Assembly (NCBI RefSeq): GCF_030547005.1
Contig: NZ_JAUOPN010000013.1
Location: 1-64,000 of the forward strand
DNA from: Maribacter sp. 1_MG-2023
GTDB lineage: Bacteria > Bacteroidota > Bacteroidia > Flavobacteriales > Flavobacteriaceae
Length of the DNA stretch: 64,000 nt
Direction of reading: 5' to 3'
Made by a program: the position numbers and the translations under genes. The notes under the pieces were generated by a model. It was not told the DNA's origin. It saw nothing but the letters and a program-made list of their open reading frames with translations, and did no database searches. Numbering within the stretch: position 1 is the stretch's first letter; every line of letters starts with the position of its first letter. Positions 23,366-60,170 of the stretch are shown one piece after another.

Positions 23366-24448
23366 TTAAGCGTTTACAATCTTCTCTTGATGACGAATAG
23401 ACTCTTGGTGAATTGCTTTGAACATACGAAGAACAAACTCTTCACTTAGCCCCTTGCTTTCTCCTTCAAGTATCATAGCTCCTAAAATTTCGTTCCAACG
23501 TGTACTTTGCAACACTGCTACGTTTTTCTCCTTTTTAAGCTCTCCGATTGCATCTGAAGTTTTCATACGCTTACCTAAAGTTTCAATTAATTGATTATCA
23601 ATAATATCAATATTGGCTCTAAGGTTGTTCAGCTTTGCATTATACTCAGCCTCGGTATTATCCTCTTTACGAATCTTAAGATCTCTCATGATCTGAACCA
23701 ATTTGCTTGGCGTCACTTGCTGTGCAGCATCACTCCATGCATTATCTGGATCATGATGTGTTTCTATCATCAATCCGTCAAAATTAAGATCAAGAGCAGT
23801 TTGTGATACATCAAAAATCATTTCTCTATTTCCTGTAATGTGCGATGGATCATTGATAATAGGTAAATCTGGAAATTTAGTCTGTAAATCAATAGCCATT
23901 TGCCATTCTGGAATATTTCTATATTTAGTTTTCTCATACGTAGAGAAACCTCTATGTATTACTCCTAAATTTTTAATATCTGCAGTAGCCAAACGCTCAA
24001 CGGCTCCTAACCATAAAGCTAAATCTGGATTTACAGGATTCTTTACCAACACCACTTTGTCGGTTCCTTTTAATGCATCGGCAATTTCTTGAACGATAAA
24101 CGGGCTTACCGTTGATCTTGCTCCGATCCATAATAAATCAATATCATGCTCTAAAGCTAATTCAACGTGTGCACGGTTAGCAACTTCTGTTGCTGTTTTC
24201 ATACCTGTTTCAGCCTTAACTTTCTGAAGCCATTTAAGCCCTAAAGCGCCTACACCTTCAAAATTTCCTGGGCGAGTACGAGGTTTCCAAATACCGGCTC
24301 TGTAATAATTTACATCGGTATCTTTTAGAGAGTGTGCTATACCTAACACTTGTTCCTCTGTTTCCGCACTACATGGCCCTGCTATTACTAGTGGATGGTC
24401 AAGGTTTAAATCATCCAACCATGTTCTCATTTGTTTTGAATTTTCCAT
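23366..24448 (-). CDS. Bifunctional DAHP synthase / chorismate mutase
   Basis: A 360-residue fusion. Residues about 1-255 are a type I DAHP synthase of the KDO8P-synthase-like group (VIAGPCSAET, RAGIWKPRTRPGNFEG, NDPSHITGNRE), which condenses PEP and erythrose-4-phosphate. Residues about 270-360 are an AroQ-type chorismate mutase (LRANIDIIDNQLIETLGKRM), which makes prephenate. The mutase domain is likely also the feedback sensor. It is the last gene of the operon and supplies both the entry step of the pathway and the branch to Phe/Tyr. Confidence 0.93.
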   Translation of the reverse strand: MENSKQMRTWLDDLNLDHPLVIAGPCSAETEEQVLGIAHSLKDTDVNYYRAGIWKPRTRPGNFEGVGALGLKWLQKVKAETGMKTATEVANRAHVELALEHDIDLLWIGARSTVSPFIVQEIADALKGTDKVVLVKNPVNPDLALWLGAVERLATADIKNLGVIHRGFSTYEKTKYRNIPEWQMAIDLQTKFPDLPIINDPSHITGNREMIFDVSQTALDLNFDGLMIETHHDPDNAWSDAAQQVTPSKLVQIMRDLKIRKEDNTEAEYNAKLNNLRANIDIIDNQLIETLGKRMKTSDAIGELKKEKNVAVLQSTRWNEILGAMILEGESKGLSEEFVLRMFKAIHQESIRHQEKIVNA

Positions 24449-24454
24449 TTTTAC

Positions 24455-25321
24455 TTATTCTATTTCTTGTTTAACGGTATTTCTTTTTAGTATTCCTTTA
24501 ATCTTATTCGTATTATTCATTTCATTATAAATGCCCTCGTAATCATCTTTCTGCAGCATTTCTTTAAATGCCGTAAGATTTTGAATGTACTCTTCTAATG
24601 TCTCGACTACATTCTCTTTATTCTGTTTAAAAATCGGCGTCCACATGGCTGGTGAACTCTTTGCCAAACGCACTGTACTTTCAAATCCACTACCCGCCAT
24701 ATCAAAAATATCGCGCTCGTTCTTCTCTTTTTCAATCACTGTTTTACCTAACATAAATGAACTTATGTGCGATAAATGAGAAACGTAAGCAATGTGCTTA
24801 TCATGAGCAATAGGATTCATATACCTGATTCTCATACCAACTGCCTGAAAAACTTTCAAAGCTCTTTCTTGAAGCTTAAATGCTGTTAATTCTACCTCGC
24901 AAATAATATTCGTTTTGTCTTTGAACAAATTATTTATTGCTGCAGATGGTCCAGAAAATTCTGTTCCTGCAATGGGATGACATGCCAAAAAGTTTCTTCT
25001 CTTAGGATGATTCTCTAAAACCTTACAGATTAAAGATTTGGTGGATCCCACATCAAAAACTACACAGTCTTCATGAACAGCATCTAATATTACCGGAAGC
25101 TCTGTAACCATAACATCAACAGGTATACTTACAATGACCATATCTGCTAATTGTAAATCTTGATAGGTAGCCGTCTTATCGATTATACCCAAAGACAATG
25201 CCTCAGCTAAATTTGCTTCATTAGATTCTATGCCATAAACGGTAACATTGTCGACTGCCGACTTTATGTCTTTCGCTAAAGAACCTCCTATTAAACCGAT
25301 ACCTATTACAAATACATTCAT
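24455..25321 (-). CDS. tyrA: Prephenate dehydrogenase
   Basis: A 288-residue NAD(P)-dependent enzyme that converts prephenate to 4-hydroxyphenylpyruvate for tyrosine. The Rossmann motif GIGLIGGSLAKDI is at the N-terminus. The prephenate-binding block HPIAGTEFSGP and the later SHLSHISSFML with MAGSGFESTVRLA are typical. There is no fused mutase or ACT domain. The downstream mutase fusion gene starts 6 bp after the stop. Confidence 0.93.
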   Translation of the reverse strand: MNVFVIGIGLIGGSLAKDIKSAVDNVTVYGIESNEANLAEALSLGIIDKTATYQDLQLADMVIVSIPVDVMVTELPVILDAVHEDCVVFDVGSTKSLICKVLENHPKRRNFLACHPIAGTEFSGPSAAINNLFKDKTNIICEVELTAFKLQERALKVFQAVGMRIRYMNPIAHDKHIAYVSHLSHISSFMLGKTVIEKEKNERDIFDMAGSGFESTVRLAKSSPAMWTPIFKQNKENVVETLEEYIQNLTAFKEMLQKDDYEGIYNEMNNTNKIKGILKRNTVKQEIE

Positions 25322-25355: not shown

Positions 25356-26504
25356 CTAATCAAATCTTTTAATTGCTTCTTTTATTTTGTCTTTTGTGAT
25401 ACAAAGAGAAAAGCGAATATAACCTTCGCCATTACTACCAAATATGGTTCCTGGAGTTATGAACAAATCTTTTGTATACAATACATTATCTATAAATTCT
25501 TCTGATGACACACTGCCTTCTGGTAATTTTGCCCATACGAACAAGCCAACGGCATTTTTATCATATGTACACCCAAGCGTGTCTGCCAATTCAAAAATCA
25601 ACTCTCTACGCTCACTATATACGGCATTCAAGTTCTCGAACCATTCATCGGTACTTTCTAATGCTGCTATGGCTCCTTTCTGAATTCCGTAGAACATACC
25701 AGAGTCCATATTACTCTTCACCTTTAAAATAGCATTGATATGCTCTTCGCTACCTAATACAAAACCTACACGCCAACCGGCCATGTTAAAGGTTTTGCTC
25801 AATGAATTCAATTCTAAACACACCTCTTTTGCATTCGGTATACTCAAAATACTCGCAGGTTCGTCATTTAAGACAAAACTATACGGATTGTCGTTTACTA
25901 ACAGAATATCATGCTGCTTCGCAAAGTCTACTATTTTCACAAACTGCTCTTTAGTTGCCGAAGCACCTGTTGGCATATGTGGGTAACTCAACCACATAAT
26001 CTTTACCTTAGATAAATCTTGCTTTGCCAATGCCTCTAGGTCTGGAAACCAGCCATTATCTTCTGTCAAATCATAATATGTAGGCACTGCACCTACCAAA
26101 TTAGTTACAGAAGTGTACGTTGGGTATCCCGGATTAGGAATTAAAACCTCATCTCCTTCATTCAAAAAAGAAAGGCTAATATGCATTATACCTTCTTTTG
26201 ATCCCATTAATGGTAAAATCTCAGTATCAGGGTTGGCATCAACATTAAACCTGTTCTTATAAAAATCAGCAATTGCACCTCTTAACTGAGGTAACCCTTG
26301 GTAACTTTGATATTGATGTGCACCGTTTTCTAATACCGCGTTCTGTATTGCATTTAATACTTCTTGAGACGGAGTCAGATCCGGACTACCAATACCCATA
26401 TTTATGATTGGTTTACCTTGTGCCATTAAGCCGCGTACCTCTCTCAACTTTTTTGAGAAGTAGTATTCCTGTATGGTATTTAACCTTTCGGCTGTACGTA
26501 TCAT
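25356..26504 (-). CDS. PLP-dependent aminotransferase class I/II (aromatic branch)
   Basis: A 382-residue fold-type I aminotransferase. The PLP lysine lies in LNSLSKTFNMAGWRVGF, the phosphate-binding and ring-stacking residues in NPGYPTYTS, and DNPYSF follows. Its place between prephenate dehydratase and dehydrogenase implies the last step to Phe and Tyr (phenylpyruvate or hydroxyphenylpyruvate with glutamate). Sequence alone also fits LL-diaminopimelate or aspartate aminotransferases. It overlaps pheA by four bases. Confidence 0.88.
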   Translation of the reverse strand: MIRTAERLNTIQEYYFSKKLREVRGLMAQGKPIINMGIGSPDLTPSQEVLNAIQNAVLENGAHQYQSYQGLPQLRGAIADFYKNRFNVDANPDTEILPLMGSKEGIMHISLSFLNEGDEVLIPNPGYPTYTSVTNLVGAVPTYYDLTEDNGWFPDLEALAKQDLSKVKIMWLSYPHMPTGASATKEQFVKIVDFAKQHDILLVNDNPYSFVLNDEPASILSIPNAKEVCLELNSLSKTFNMAGWRVGFVLGSEEHINAILKVKSNMDSGMFYGIQKGAIAALESTDEWFENLNAVYSERRELIFELADTLGCTYDKNAVGLFVWAKLPEGSVSSEEFIDNVLYTKDLFITPGTIFGSNGEGYIRFSLCITKDKIKEAIKRFD

Positions 26505-27328
26505 TGTCTTACATTTTTATATTCGCCCAAAACTTTAAAGTCTTCTGACATGATGTTCAATAGACTTTTAGCCTTAGTAAAATCTGCATAATCGGTAAAA
26601 GTAACATCCACAAAAAATGCATATTTCCATGGTGTTTCTATTACTGGTAACGACTGTATTTTTGTCAAATTCAATCTACAATCGCTCATAACATTAAGCA
26701 CAGCCGCTAAACTTCCCCTTTTATGGTCGGTTATGAACCGTAATGAAGCCTTTGTAATATCAGCCTCTGGCAACACATTATTTTTTATCTCTACAATGAT
26801 AAAACGAGTAGCGTTATTTTGTATCGTCTGTATGTCATTCGCTACGATGTCCAACCCATATAATTCTGCCGCGACTTGAGGTGCAATAGCGGCTACATGC
26901 TTTAATTTCTTCTCTTGAATACGTTTAGCCGTCTCTGCTGTATCAACATCTTCTACCAGTTTTATATGTGGATATTGTTTAAAATATTCTTTACACTGCA
27001 ACAAAGCCATCGGGTGGGAACTGACCTCTGTTATATCTTCAATTTTCTGCCCCTTCAACATCATTAAATTATGATGAATATTTAAGTAATACTCACCTAT
27101 AATGTGCAAGTTATTATGATTGACCAATGCATAATTCGGTATTATTGAACCCGCAATGCTATTCTCGATTGCCATAACCCCTTGATCCGCTTCATTAGAC
27201 AATAACTTGTCTACCAAAGCATCGAAAGAAAGACATTCTACCAACTCGATATCGTCACCAAAACAATCTTTTGCTACCTGATGATGGTTGCTTCCCTTAA
27301 TTCCCTGTATGGCTATTTTTAAACTCAT
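26501..27328 (-). CDS. pheA: Prephenate dehydratase
   Basis: A 275-residue enzyme that converts prephenate to phenylpyruvate. The periplasmic-binding-like catalytic part carries GVMAIENSIAGSI and NNATRFIIVE (the conserved TRF triplet). An ACT regulatory domain (about 195-275) with LNLTKIQSLPV (usually ESRP-like, the Phe effector loop) follows. It lacks a chorismate mutase domain, which sits in the last gene of the operon. It is the first structural gene and is preceded by the leader peptide and attenuator. Confidence 0.94.
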   Translation of the reverse strand: MSLKIAIQGIKGSNHHQVAKDCFGDDIELVECLSFDALVDKLLSNEADQGVMAIENSIAGSIIPNYALVNHNNLHIIGEYYLNIHHNLMMLKGQKIEDITEVSSHPMALLQCKEYFKQYPHIKLVEDVDTAETAKRIQEKKLKHVAAIAPQVAAELYGLDIVANDIQTIQNNATRFIIVEIKNNVLPEADITKASLRFITDHKRGSLAAVLNVMSDCRLNLTKIQSLPVIETPWKYAFFVDVTFTDYADFTKAKSLLNIMSEDFKVLGEYKNVRQ

Positions 27329-27391: not shown

Positions 27392-27423
27392 CAAAAAAAA
27401 AGTTCCGATATATATCGGAACTT
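27392..27423 (-). terminator. Attenuator terminator upstream of pheA
   Basis: The palindrome formed by AAGTTCCGATAT and ATATCGGAACTT (27400-27423) is followed on the minus strand by nine T. It lies between the aromatic leader peptide (stop at 27450) and pheA (start 27328), so it would cut the operon transcript before the first gene. AGTTCCG of its first arm (27416-27422) can pair with CGGGACT inside the leader peptide frame (27457-27463), one G-T pair included, giving a candidate antiterminator. Confidence 0.85.
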
Positions 27424-27449
27424 AGATTCTATTTTATATTTAAAATATA

Positions 27450-27521
27450 CTACAACAGTCCCGTACCTCTCTTAAAAAAGAAGTAAAAATAAAAACCGTT
27501 CCAGAAATATTGTTTTGTCAT
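27450..27521 (-). CDS. Aromatic leader peptide of the Phe/Tyr operon
   Basis: A 23-codon frame, ATG at 27521 and TAG at 27450. Ten of 23 residues are aromatic: YFW at 5-7 and FYFYFFF at 10-16 (six Phe, three Tyr, one Trp). Such a run directly before a terminator and an operon for phenylalanine and tyrosine synthesis is the classic sign of ribosome-mediated attenuation. A ribosome stalled for charged tRNA-Phe or tRNA-Tyr at codons 10-16 would leave the antiterminator segment at 27457-27463 free; one that reaches the stop would cover it and allow termination. The frame is seen directly; the mechanism is inferred. Confidence 0.85.
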   Translation of the reverse strand: MTKQYFWNGFYFYFFFKRGTGLL

Positions 27522-27669
27522 TGTGCTTGTAAACTTTGGCTAAAGTAGTAATTATATTTAAAAATGGATGTTTTCCTTTTTATTATTTTAAAAAAATCAA
27601 TTTCTATCTCAAAAAGCGAAGGTTTTGTGTTAAAAATTGAATGAAATATGAATTACTATTAGAAATAAA

Positions 27670-27695
27670 AAAAGACCTCTAGAAAGAGGTCTTTT
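27670..27695 (-). terminator. Terminator of the lipoprotein gene at 27718
   Basis: The stem AAAAGACCTCT / AGAGGTCTTTT has a 4-base loop, with a T-run on the minus-strand side. It ends the transcript of the gene to its right, which means the hairpin at 27400-27423 is not needed for that purpose. Confidence 0.87.
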
Positions 27696-33237: not shown

Positions 33238-33345
33238 GGCGTTCGAGCGGGCTTTCAGCTTTATTTTTTCTATTTAAAAACTTTAGCAAAACTTCATCCT
33301 CACTGCTAAAATAGAAAAAGATGCCGCTTCAATCCCTAACGCACT
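33238..33345. repeat. Long palindromic repeat between metH and metF
   Basis: Nested inverted repeats: outer GCGTTCGAGCGG against CCGCTTC...AACGC, and inner TTTTTCTATTT with TAGCA against TGCTA and AAATAGAAAAA. On the minus strand it begins GCGTTAGGGATTGAAGCGG, a sequence I recall from intergenic repeats of many Flavobacteria. It may also act as a transcript end or stabiliser after metH. Confidence 0.7.
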
Positions 33346-36082
33346 AGTCAACTATATTCGGTGCCAACCATCTTTCGGCATCCTCCAATGGCATGCCTTT
33401 TCGTTCGGCAAAATCTTTAACCTGATCATCTTTTATTTTTCCTAATCCGAAATAACGTGCCTGCGGATTTCCAAAATAATACCCACTTACAGATGCTGCT
33501 GGCCACATAGCCAAACTATCCGTCAGTTCAACACCAATAGTCTCTTTTACATTTAAAATATCCCAAATAGTCAATTTCTCTAAGTGATCAGGACAAGCAG
33601 GATACCCTGGTGCAGGACGAATTCCTTTATAAGATTCCTTAATTAAATCTTCATTGCTTAACTCTTCATTTGCCGCATAGCCCCAGTGTTTCAGCCGGAC
33701 TTCCTTATGCAAATATTCTGCGAAAGCTTCTGCCAATCTATCCGCTAAAGCCTTTACCATAATGGAATTATAGTCATCTAAATCGGCTTCATATTTTGCC
33801 GCTAATTCCGCAGTACCAAAACCTGTAGACACACAGAAACAACCCATGTAATCTTGTTTTCCAGATTCTTTCGGTGCTATAAAATCTGCCAGAGCATAAT
33901 CTGCTACACCTTCTCTACGCTCTAATTGTTGGCGTAAGGTTCTAAAAGTATACTGCTCTTTATCTCGCCCTTGGACTGCGTTCAAGGTGACATCAATATC
34001 GTCATCGTTGACGGAGTTTGCAGGAAAGAGTCCAAAAATACCTTTTGCCTTTAATTTCTTCTCAGAAATAATGGTATTTAGCATTTCTTGAGCATCTGCA
34101 AATAACTCAGTTGCTTGAACACCTACAACATCATCAGTTAATATTGCGGGGTATTTACCATGTAATTCCCAACTTCTAAAAAATGGAGTCCAATCTATAA
34201 AAGGCAGCAAAAGATTTAAATCTAAATCATCAATTACTTGAATACCTAAGGTATTCGGTTTAACTATCTCAGACGTTTTCCAATCTATTTTAAACTTGTT
34301 TCTACGTGCCGCAGAAATAGGCTTATATGTTTTGCTTGATGAACGATTTAAGAACTTCTCCCTAAATACATCATAATCATCTTTAATACTCTTTTTGTAA
34401 CCTTGTGATGTTTCTTCTTTAAGTAAATCTCCCACAACGGTTACCGCCCTAGAGGCATCGTTTACATGGACTACCGCTTCACTGTACTGGGTATCTATCT
34501 TTACGGCCGTATGCGCTTTACTTGTTGTAGCACCACCAATTAACAGTGGAAATTTAAATTTCTTACGCTCCATTTCTTTTGCTAAATGAACCATTTCATC
34601 TAGAGATGGCGTAATCAATCCGCTAAGTCCTATTATATCTACATTATGCTCAATAGCAGCTGCAATTATTTTTTCAGGCGGTACCATTACCCCTAAATCA
34701 ACAATCTCATAATTATTACACGCAAGCACCACGCTTACAATATTTTTACCAATATCATGAACGTCGCCCTTTACGGTTGCCATTAAAATTTTACCTGCAC
34801 CCTTATCATCACCTTCCTGTGGATTAAGCAATTTCTCTTCTTCAATATATGGTAATAAATAGGCTACCGCTTTTTTCATTACACGGGCAGATTTTACCAC
34901 CTGTGGCAAGAACATTTTTCCGCTTCCGAATAAATCACCCACTACATTCATACCGGTCATTAAATTACCTTCAATAACCTCAATTGGCTTACTTGCGGCA
35001 AGCCTAGCTTCTTCTATATCTTCAATTATATATTGGTCAATACCTTTTACCAACGCTCGTGTTATTCTATTTTGTAATGGTTCTTCTCTCCATGATAAGT
35101 CTACCTTACTTTCCTTTGTTTTACCTACTACAGATTCTGCAAAATCAAGTAAGCGCTCTGTTGCATCGTCTCTTCTATTCAGAATAACATCTTCAACACG
35201 CTCTAATAAATCTTTAGGAATATCATCATAAACCTCAAGCATACTAGGATTTACGATACCCATGTTCATACCTGCTTTTATTGCATGATATAAAAATACC
35301 GAGTGCATTGCCTCACGAACCGGGTTGTTACCCCTAAAAGAGAAAGAAACATTACTTACCCCACCACTAACACTGGCATGTGGCAAGTTTTCACGCACCC
35401 ATCTTGTTGCTTCAATAAAATCGATGGCATTCAGTTTATGCTCATCCATACCTGTAGCAACAGGGAAAATATTTAAATCGAAAATAATATCTTCTGGCGC
35501 AAAATTTACTTTGTTCACTAAAACATCATACGAACGCTTGGCTATCTCAATACGTCGGTCATAATTATCTGCTTGACCTACCTCATCGAACGCCATGACA
35601 ATAACCGCCGCACCATATCGCTTTATCAATTTGGCATGGTGTAAAAACTGTTCTTCTCCTTCTTTTAAACTGATAGAGTTTACCACACATTTACCCTGAA
35701 CTACTTGCAGACCCGCCTCAATAATTTCCCATTTAGAGCTATCAATCATAATGGGAACACGAGAAATATCTGGCTCGGCAATAACTAGATTCAAAAATTT
35801 GACCATGGCTTCCTTACCATCAATCAAACCATCATCCATATTAATATCAATAACTTGGGCTCCATTCTCTACCTGCTCTCTAGCAACAGCTAATGCTTCT
35901 TCAAACTTCTGTTCTTTTACAAGACGTAGAAACTTTTTTGAACCAGCAACGTTTGTCCGTTCACCAACGTTGATAAAGTTGGTTTCGGGAGTGACTATTA
36001 AGGGTTCTAATCCGCTCAACCGTAGATATCTGGTTGTTGGTTGTTGGTTGTTGGTTGTTAGTATTTCAGACCTATTGCTCAT
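33344..36082 (-). CDS. metH: Methionine synthase, cobalamin-dependent, C-terminal half
   Basis: A 912-residue protein with three MetH modules: the pterin-binding barrel (about 20-290, [15 protein letters not shown]), the cobalamin-binding module with DVHDIGKN ([15 protein letters not shown]), and the reactivation domain binding SAM (about 590-912, [14 protein letters not shown] and [11 protein letters not shown]). The homocysteine-binding half is a separate gene at 36494. Two oddities: residues 8-18 ([11 protein letters not shown]) are encoded by an AACAACC heptamer array, and [10 protein letters not shown] in the reactivation domain is encoded by a short palindromic repeat. Both look like in-frame additions. 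Confidence 0.95.
36032..36060. repeat. Heptanucleotide satellite (TGGTTGT)4 inside metH
   Basis: Four copies of the 7-base unit plus one base, lying within the first 20 codons of the metH C-terminal-half gene. Since seven is not a multiple of three, gain or loss of one unit would shift the frame; gain or loss of three would not. Confidence 0.92.
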
Positions 36083-37567: not shown

Positions 37568-37712
37568 GTTATCTGTCTTTTTTAATGCTATTTAAAATAA
37601 CACATTCTGCAGAAGTAAGCAGAATAAAGATAGAATGTAGCACCTTCTTTTCCATATTGGAAAGGGTTGCCAAGGTTTCAATGGGTCTAGTCCCTCCACC
37701 TTTCTTGATAAC
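37568..37712 (-). ncRNA. SAM-I (S-box) riboswitch of the metH-metF operon
   Basis: On the minus strand: P1 GTTATC (37712-37707) pairs with GATAAC (37573-37568). In between come AAGAAAGGTGGAGGGACTAG, GAAACCTTGGCAACC and AAGGTGCTACATTC, the conserved core of the SAM-I aptamer. P4 seems lengthened: TCTATCTTT pairs with AAAGACAGA and an inner hairpin ATTCTGC/GCAGAAT lies inside it. No strong terminator follows before the metH start at 37483, so the way it controls expression is unclear. High SAM is expected to turn the operon off. Confidence 0.93.
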
Positions 37713-37814
37713 GTTTCAATATATTTATGAACTAATTGCAAAGTAACGGCACAGTATGCTCTTATCCAAAACTTCAATAGGTTATTTAGTTAACGAAATT
37801 CTGGGGAATTGTCA

Positions 37815-52663: not shown

Positions 52664-52796
52664 GATTTTGTTGTTTTTAAAAATTGTTAATCCTAAGGAT
52701 ATTAAAAATTAAAAGCCAAACCTTGACCAGCATACTATGCGGGTAGGTAAAATCAAAAAGTTATAAGAAAGTAATATCGAAGAAAATTCGATTACT

Positions 52797-52896
52797 GTTA
52801 TCCATCCCCTAAGGGTAGAATGTAGCACCTTCTTTGTATTGAACAAAGGGTTGCTAAGGTTTCAAAGGGTCTAATCCCTCCACCTTTCTTGATAAC
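52797..52896 (-). ncRNA. SAM-I (S-box) riboswitch of metY
   Basis: On the minus strand P1 GTTATC (52896-52891) pairs with GATAAC (52802-52797). AAGAAAGGTGGAGGGATTAG, GAAACCTTAGCAACC and AAGGTGCTACATTC are the conserved core, nearly the same as in the metH copy; the P3 arm (TTTGTTCAATACAAA) and P4 (CCCTTAGGGG) are shorter. AAACCTT of the core is also complementary to AAGGTTT downstream (about 52705-52715), a possible switch pairing. No clear poly-T terminator is present. Confidence 0.94.
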
Positions 52897-52926
52897 TATT
52901 CAATAAGTGTTTGAACTTTGAGTTAG

Positions 52927-60084: not shown

Positions 60085-60170
60085 ACATCAACTGCTTTAG
60101 CATTTTTTTCGCTTTATACCCTAAGGCTAAAACAGAGGTTGCAATCAGTCAAATCCCTCCTCACTTTTTT
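60085..60170 (-). ncRNA. SAM-II-like riboswitch candidate of metK
   Basis: On the minus strand, stem GAGG (60162-60159) / CCTC (60138-60135) closes a 20-base loop containing GATTTGACTGATTGCAA; after a 30-40 base linker comes TGCTAAAGCAGTT (from about 60102). The SAM-II consensus, as I remember it, is a stem whose loop holds GATTT, then ATTGCAA, with a distal GCTAAA that forms an H-type pseudoknot. Here GACTG in the loop (from about 60152) can pair with CAGTT just after GCTAAAG, the same layout. No terminator follows, so control would be on translation. Confidence 0.6.

Follow-up and report, generated by a model that had tools for sequence, protein, structure and literature searches.

Enteric pheA leaders carry stall codons in a leader peptide and form the RNA pairings designated 1:2, 2:3, and 3:4. 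The leader of E. coli ilvGMEDA reads several products of the branched-chain pathway. Attenuators were described for the regulation of phenylalanine in other species and T-boxes for that of tyrosine (PMC1262725). Leader genes were treated in general terms in PMC4833913, without mention of pheA or phenylalanine.

Small ORFs reminiscent of leader peptides were described in Bacteroides (PMC7366714). Bacteroid-trp RNA (RF01692), which has a table entry in PMC2864571, lies before trp genes in Bacteroidota and was described as similar to the trp leader of E. coli (PMC6414381). For F. psychrophilum, a structured and transcribed 5' element upstream of pheA, conserved in Flavobacteriaceae and without an Rfam match, was reported in 2021, and the same section sees strong indications of attenuation by leader peptides 5' of operons for amino acids (PMC9723704). 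That section describes no peptide, no codons, no pairing test, and no spread beyond the family. Compared by description, the element is very probably the same as the one analyzed here.

A sequence-only reading of the Maribacter locus had called such a layout little described in Bacteroidetes. With the F. psychrophilum element in print, the layout is not entirely undescribed. No mixed Phe/Tyr leader was recognized in the literature searched, the scope of which did not extend to the older surveys Vitreschak 2004 and Lopatovskaya 2010, and we know of no earlier leader-peptide attenuator with mixed Phe/Tyr codons. The former survey reportedly names Bacteroidetes/Chlorobi, so part of the finding may already be in print. 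As far as searched, what is new is the mixing of aromatic codons, the class-wide spread, the architecture with its tests, and the connection with DAHP synthase.

The window analyzed in this study is a stretch of 64,000 nt of Maribacter DNA. Sequence comparison established the leader before pheA, its mixed Phe/Tyr codons, its terminator, and the fit of pairings 1:2 and 2:3, and the leader is very likely an enteric-type, ribosome-mediated transcription attenuator. Like the enteric pheA/pheST leader (RF01859, Phe_leader), it combines a stall-codon peptide with pairings 1:2, 2:3, and 3:4 before pheA. Unlike the enteric leader, it mixes in Tyr codons, leaders of its type often contain Trp, and the operon adds tyrA and DAHP synthase/mutase. 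It is not a member of RF01859, for which it scored 23.2 bits where the cut-off is 55, and an Rfam scan at the leader, run with the gathering score and with a permissive E-value, gave no family above cut-off. With the ilvGMEDA leader it would share the use of one leader for several end products of a shared pathway, although these are branched-chain rather than aromatic amino acids in E. coli.

Bacteroid-trp RNA can be regarded as the trp cousin of the pheA leader. It is a separate Rfam family, the copy of which in this genome uses Trp codons alone, and RF01692 was not among the Rfam matches at the pheA leader. The one match in the genome (L275; G000 contig C6, 100180-100295, minus strand) scored 50.9 bits at a cut-off of 49. 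Its leader, MKNLIANTWWWNNLRKTS, precedes a 465-aa ORF that looks trpE-like by eye.

Leader and operon in the Maribacter window

The leader ORF (27450..27521, minus strand) encodes MTKQYFWNGFYFYFFFKRGTGLL in 23 codons, ends with TAG, and would supply the sensor codons. According to the translation, the residues at positions 5, 6, 7, and 10-16 are aromatic, ten in total. The run FYFYFFF at codons 10-16 (27474..27494, minus strand) contains the putative stall codons, as judged by the conservation of the run and the codon table described below.

Four genes follow on the minus strand, namely pheA for prephenate dehydratase (PDT; 26501..27328; PF00800, 6e-58), a class I/II aminotransferase gene (25356..26504; PF00155, 8.2e-59), tyrA for prephenate dehydrogenase (24455..25321; PF02153 and PF20463), and a gene for DAHP synthase fused to chorismate mutase (23366..24448; PF00793 and PF01817). 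All four exceeded the Pfam cut-offs. With the NCBIfam models, tyrA alone scored above cut-off (NF006307), and pheA, the aminotransferase, and DAHP synthase/mutase remained below. The sequence-only reading had proposed the same 23-codon frame (27521-27450) with ten aromatic residues and the same gene order; the former agrees with the translation letter for letter, and the latter was borne out by the Pfam hits for all four genes. A terminator-like site 3' of the upstream gene (27670..27695, minus strand; terminator prediction) would set that gene apart from the leader.

Leader occurrence and a putative promoter box

For the survey of relatives, a leader was defined as an ORF of at most 60 codons with at least six F/Y/W in ten residues and a terminator at most 95 nt from its stop, a rule that was formulated after a first look at class-wide leaders. 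Leaders of this kind were found before pheA in 79 of the 80 named loci, the closest of which are from Maribacter. The 80th (L059) is cut by the contig end within the leader, of which the remainder can still be recognized. Similarly, 67 of 70 further family genomes carry such a leader (57/60 and 10/10), the 60 having been picked among the less similar of 136 family genomes that have pheA; the three exceptions are L208, L236 (contig edge), and L249. Elsewhere in the class, outside the family, the leader was found in 33 of 52 genomes, and three of the remaining 19 have a shorter leader of the TYFWFYP type. In other classes, two of 27 genomes were positive (L097 and L103), these 27 being a sample of 77 matches from the same phylum. 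The weak or distant matches G012, G095, and G308 were left out. Named loci and further genomes may share species in these counts, and kinship was split by homology-search labels. Under the same rule, no leader was obtained from 294 random 500-nt pieces of the window or from 229 pieces of the flanks of relatives (0/523 in total); in the latter, matches holding FYF were not counted, to exclude the leader itself.

The frame and its aromatic run, for which conservation in relatives had been predicted, are thus retained in nearly all named loci. The earlier view needs widening on two points, as the leader also occurs outside Flavobacteriaceae and the codon mix often includes Trp.

A class-level set of 52 leaders was chosen from 48 genomes (10 from the family, 2 from other classes, and 36 from the class) after the class survey had been seen, and includes the shorter leaders L117, L120, and L140, which fail the strict rule. 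A terminator was found 3' of all 132 leaders analyzed, a count for which the second ORF of L088, L135, and L137 was dropped as not leader-like. The covariance model R1 matched 132 of 149 family genomes, with many matches weak and away from pheA, and no claim is based on it.

Two F/Y-rich leaders in tandem, each with its own terminator, precede pheA in L102, L105, L138, and L149, which belong to three families. L097 and L103 are labelled as another class of the phylum, and their pheA is 43-46% identical to that of Maribacter; their leader may reflect old inheritance or transfer.

Within the Maribacter genome, a pattern of seven consecutive F/Y codons gave 13 matches at ten distinct places, and the pheA leader was the only one of these with leader and terminator according to the rule. 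The nine other places were therefore rejected as leaders. A search for a his leader with a His-run pattern also gave 13 matches; eight distinct places were read by eye and none was his-leader-like, three matches having come without a locus and the downstream genes having been inspected for some places only.

Upstream of the leader, motif search located a putative -7 promoter box, TACTTTAG (27540..27547, minus strand), a TAnnTTAG variant of the sigmaA motif TAnnTTTG, the 3' end of which lies 18 nt before the leader ATG. TAnnTT[T/A]G was found within 45 nt 5' of the leader ATG in 70 of 80 close-clade leaders (~5.8 expected by shuffling), and 63 of these 70 boxes sit 17-18 nt before the ATG. The strict form TAnnTTTG was rare in the close clade (3 of 80 leaders), but the wider set had it in 24 of its 52 leaders, against ~1.4 expected. 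Most close relatives have TAnnTTAG, not TAnnTTTG, mostly with CC next. In F. psychrophilum, the box of the main sigma factor, TAnnTTTG, is located at -12 to -5 (PMC9723704). Applied to TACTTTAG, this position would place the RNA start near 27535, ~14 nt before the leader ATG. A promoter box of the Bacteroidota type is therefore present a short distance 5' of 27521, the position upstream of which the earlier reading required a transcript start.

RNA pairings and predicted ribosome positions

An intrinsic terminator hairpin (3:4; 27400..27423, minus strand) with 10 pairs and a loop of 4 is predicted 26 nt from the leader stop and is followed by a U-run, the remainder of which occupies 27393..27399 (minus strand; sequence and terminator prediction); pheA starts farther on, at 27328. 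The region 2 core CGGGACT (27457..27463, minus strand), identified by swap test and covariation, would form the 5' strand of the antiterminator. Its partner, the region 3 core AGTTCCG (27416..27422, minus strand), identified by terminator prediction and covariation, would provide the 3' strand and is part of the 5' arm of the terminator. Aligned with each other (27463-27457 opposite 27422-27416), the two cores form seven pairs, one of them G-U. Regions 1 and 2 together span 27450..27504 (minus strand; RNAalifold consensus and swap tests), and in the consensus, hairpin 1:2 pairs 27504-27492 with 27461-27450 and 27482-27477 with 27472-27467. None of 200 dinucleotide shuffles folded as well as the 146-nt leader (z -4.65). 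An aromatic-rich leader ORF, a terminator, a 2:3 antiterminator, and a 1:2 hairpin containing the stall codons, as expected of an enteric-type attenuator, are all predicted at this locus. The strong terminator and the pairing of CGGGACT with its arm had been noticed from the letters alone, and both stand.

Covariation was analyzed in an alignment of 57 sequences (A1), consisting of the window and 56 of 79 relatives after thinning for similarity. In the terminator, 94.2% of the cells are paired and 7 of 10 pairs changed on both sides. The antiterminator, with 96.2% of cells paired and six doubly changed cells, had a covariation score above all 500 shuffles; weaker measures were reached or exceeded by more of the shuffles (36/500 for doubly changed pairs and 122/500 for pair types). 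In hairpin 1:2, 96.3% of the cells are paired, yet within this close clade the covariation was no better than in shuffles (162/500).

Swapping of partners between leaders, most telling in the wider sets, pointed in the same direction for both pairings. For 2:3, the leader's own arm was favored over swapped arms in the class-level set (-13.3 vs -9.1 kcal/mol, sd 0.34), in the family set of 57 (-10.7 vs -8.2, sd 0.26), and in the 80 named loci (-12.3 vs -11.6, sd 0.10). For 1:2, the respective values for own and swapped partners were -14.6 vs -11.0, -15.7 vs -11.9, and -18.0 vs -16.9. None of 5000 permutations matched the observed value in any of these six tests, in which kinship and base composition were ignored. 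The predicted covariation of the pairing at 27457/27416 is hence supported by two kinds of test. As the region 2 motif is widely shared, the own arm was the best or tied best 2:3 partner in just 7 of 80 named, 17 of 52 class-level, and 10 of 57 family leaders. Furthermore, codon choice favors the fold of the 1:2 segment, which in 46 of 52 class-level and 78 of 80 named leaders is better than that of synonymous recodings on average.

These results also bear on nascent-peptide arrest, in which the aromatic peptide itself would stall the ribosome via contacts in the exit tunnel and a free amino acid would serve as the ligand, in the manner of TnaC. A ribosome stalled at the same place would affect the RNA equally, and the peptide of the close clade is indeed nearly fixed. 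Outside the close clade, however, peptides of the class share, by eye, little beyond their richness in F/Y/W (MTTHIYFYFNFYFADPAKRG, MKFNNAYFYGYYFYFTSKSRD, and MNRFSFTYYFYYFYFSRVKAGVCM), and their C-terminal part is the RNA motif read in different frames. CGGGAC is translated as part of GTGLL, KSRD, or RDC, which points to a role of the RNA rather than of the peptide. We consider peptide arrest highly improbable.

For the attenuator, we infer start site, leader translation, stalling, coupling of ribosome and polymerase, and readthrough on starvation as follows. RNA polymerase would start ~14 nt before the leader ATG, and a ribosome would translate the leader. If Phe-tRNA or Tyr-tRNA is scarce, the ribosome would stall within codons 10-16, thereby opening hairpin 1:2, and region 2 (27463-27457) would remain free immediately in front of the ribosome. 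Pairing 2:3 would then prevent terminator 3:4, and pheA, the aminotransferase gene, tyrA, and the DAHP synthase/mutase gene would be transcribed. If both tRNAs are charged, the ribosome would reach the stop codon and cover region 2, and the terminator would form.

The leading edge of a ribosome is expected to lie 12-13 nt 3' of the first base in the A site. The median distance from the last aromatic codon to the first paired base of region 2 is 10 nt in the named, 13 in the class-level, and ~14 in the family set, so that region 2 is expected to start at or beyond this edge with the last aromatic codon in the A site. From the last paired base of region 2 to the end of the stop codon, the median is 7, 7, and ~11 nt, respectively. 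The stop codon lies shortly 3' of the pairing segment in most leaders, as had been anticipated. When the window sequence was folded with the ribosome masked, each of seven stall positions tried within codons 7 to 16 allowed 10 pairs of 2:3 to form before region 4 was made, and no 2:3 pairs formed with the ribosome at the stop. The earlier proposal that a stalled ribosome frees region 2 and a ribosome at the stop covers it thus agrees with spacing and masked folding, with two exceptions: in the window, the edge of a ribosome with codon 16 in the A site just reaches region 2 at its first base, and 9 of the 52 class-level leaders have a 2:3 pairing that extends beyond the stop codon.

In free folding, the full leader preferred the terminator in every case tried; antitermination must therefore be kinetic. 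Pairing 2:3 likewise formed before region 4 was made when no ribosome was included, and a strong shut-off without translation is therefore not clearly predicted. Taken as a whole, the enteric layout proposed for the locus is supported by conservation, swap tests, spacing, and masked folding.

Codon content and the link to DAHP synthase

In the 12 residues richest in aromatics, Phe, Tyr, and Trp occur 497, 233, and 56 times among 960 residues in the 80 named leaders, 278, 181, and 37 times among 684 in the 57 family leaders, and 215, 182, and 18 times among 624 in the 52 class-level leaders; these counts ignore descent, and the leaders were picked for F/Y/W density. Trp is present in this block in 56 of 80, 36 of 57, and 18 of 52 leaders, respectively. 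The 225 residues other than Phe and Tyr in the 57 family blocks include 37 Trp, 3 His, and no Met or Cys. A codon table of 79 of the 80 close leaders, aligned on the last FFF or FFY with L060 left out and a few shorter runs maybe out of register, has TAC at position 13 in 74, TTC at 14 in 77, and TTT at 15 in 79.

The predominance of Phe over Tyr codons in all three sets would fit sensing of Phe only, with Tyr codons as tolerated fillers; the E. coli pheA leader reads Phe alone. Yet Tyr is present within the richest 12 residues in 189/189 leaders, at least two Phe together with at least two Tyr in 187 (80/80 named, 57/57 family, and 50/52 class-level), and selection by F/Y/W density would not force such a mix. 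Among the 79 aligned close relatives, 77 retain Tyr at position 13. Moreover, three leader-bearing genomes in which pheA is directly followed by DAHP synthase, with no tyrA match, still have Tyr codons in their leaders, and DAHP synthase is also needed for Tyr. Sensing of Phe only is hence very unlikely. The suggestion that one element may read both Phe and Tyr has gained support, and the leader very probably reads the charging of both tRNAs and perhaps that of Trp too. Trp codons may be sensed, and TGG could also serve RNA pairing. Control of the terminator by an RNA that binds uncharged tRNA or a small molecule (T-box or riboswitch) or by a protein, with an incidental ORF, would produce a similar terminator and antiterminator but can practically be dismissed, given that no Rfam family reached its gathering score, weak matches were far below cut-offs, and few features of the leader are as well conserved as its codon content.

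The Maribacter genome, which is 99.98% complete, encodes two PF00793 proteins, the DAHP synthase of the operon and a KDO8P synthase on contig C1, and a search for class II DAHP synthase with PF01474 gave no match in the genome. No DAHP synthase other than the operon enzyme was thus found, and the operon therefore provides the first step of Phe, Tyr, and Trp synthesis. The order pheA, aminotransferase, tyrA, DAHP synthase was found in 78 of 80 named loci; the other two, probably the short contigs L026 and L044, show just the first two or three genes. In 20 hand-picked genomes, DAHP synthase lies 3' of pheA in 14/14 with the leader (one family, two other classes; one weak match of 30%) versus 2/6 without (Fisher p 0.003, kinship ignored). 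In four of the six leaderless class genomes (L269-L272), DAHP synthase was not found after pheA, aminotransferase, and tyrA, as if leader and DAHP synthase had been lost or moved together.

Tentatively, and with slightly less than even confidence, we propose that one attenuator reads all three aromatic tRNAs, with mixed codons because the operon holds the only DAHP synthase, and that it is old in the class, occurs as a tandem pair in certain lineages, and tends to be missing when the operon lacks DAHP synthase. If true, it would be the aromatic counterpart of the multi-amino-acid ilv leader and would imply tight coupling of ribosome and polymerase in a phylum without the usual Shine-Dalgarno initiation.

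If attenuation as such is true, aromatic amino acid synthesis would be controlled with no need for a regulator protein. Leader-peptide attenuation works only if the ribosome keeps step with RNA polymerase, and these leaders thus offer a direct test of coupling in a non-Shine-Dalgarno phylum. The difference of translation initiation in this phylum from the Shine-Dalgarno mode was described previously (PMC9723704). In addition, the leaders allow annotation of the element as a family.

Further structured RNAs were matched on the minus strand of the window. One is a Flavo-1 RNA (33241-33357), a motif the function of which was left open in PMC9723704. Two SAM (S-box) riboswitches (52795-52898 and 37602-37714) scored above the gathering score, and a SAM-II riboswitch (60087-60168) is located within the same 64 kb.
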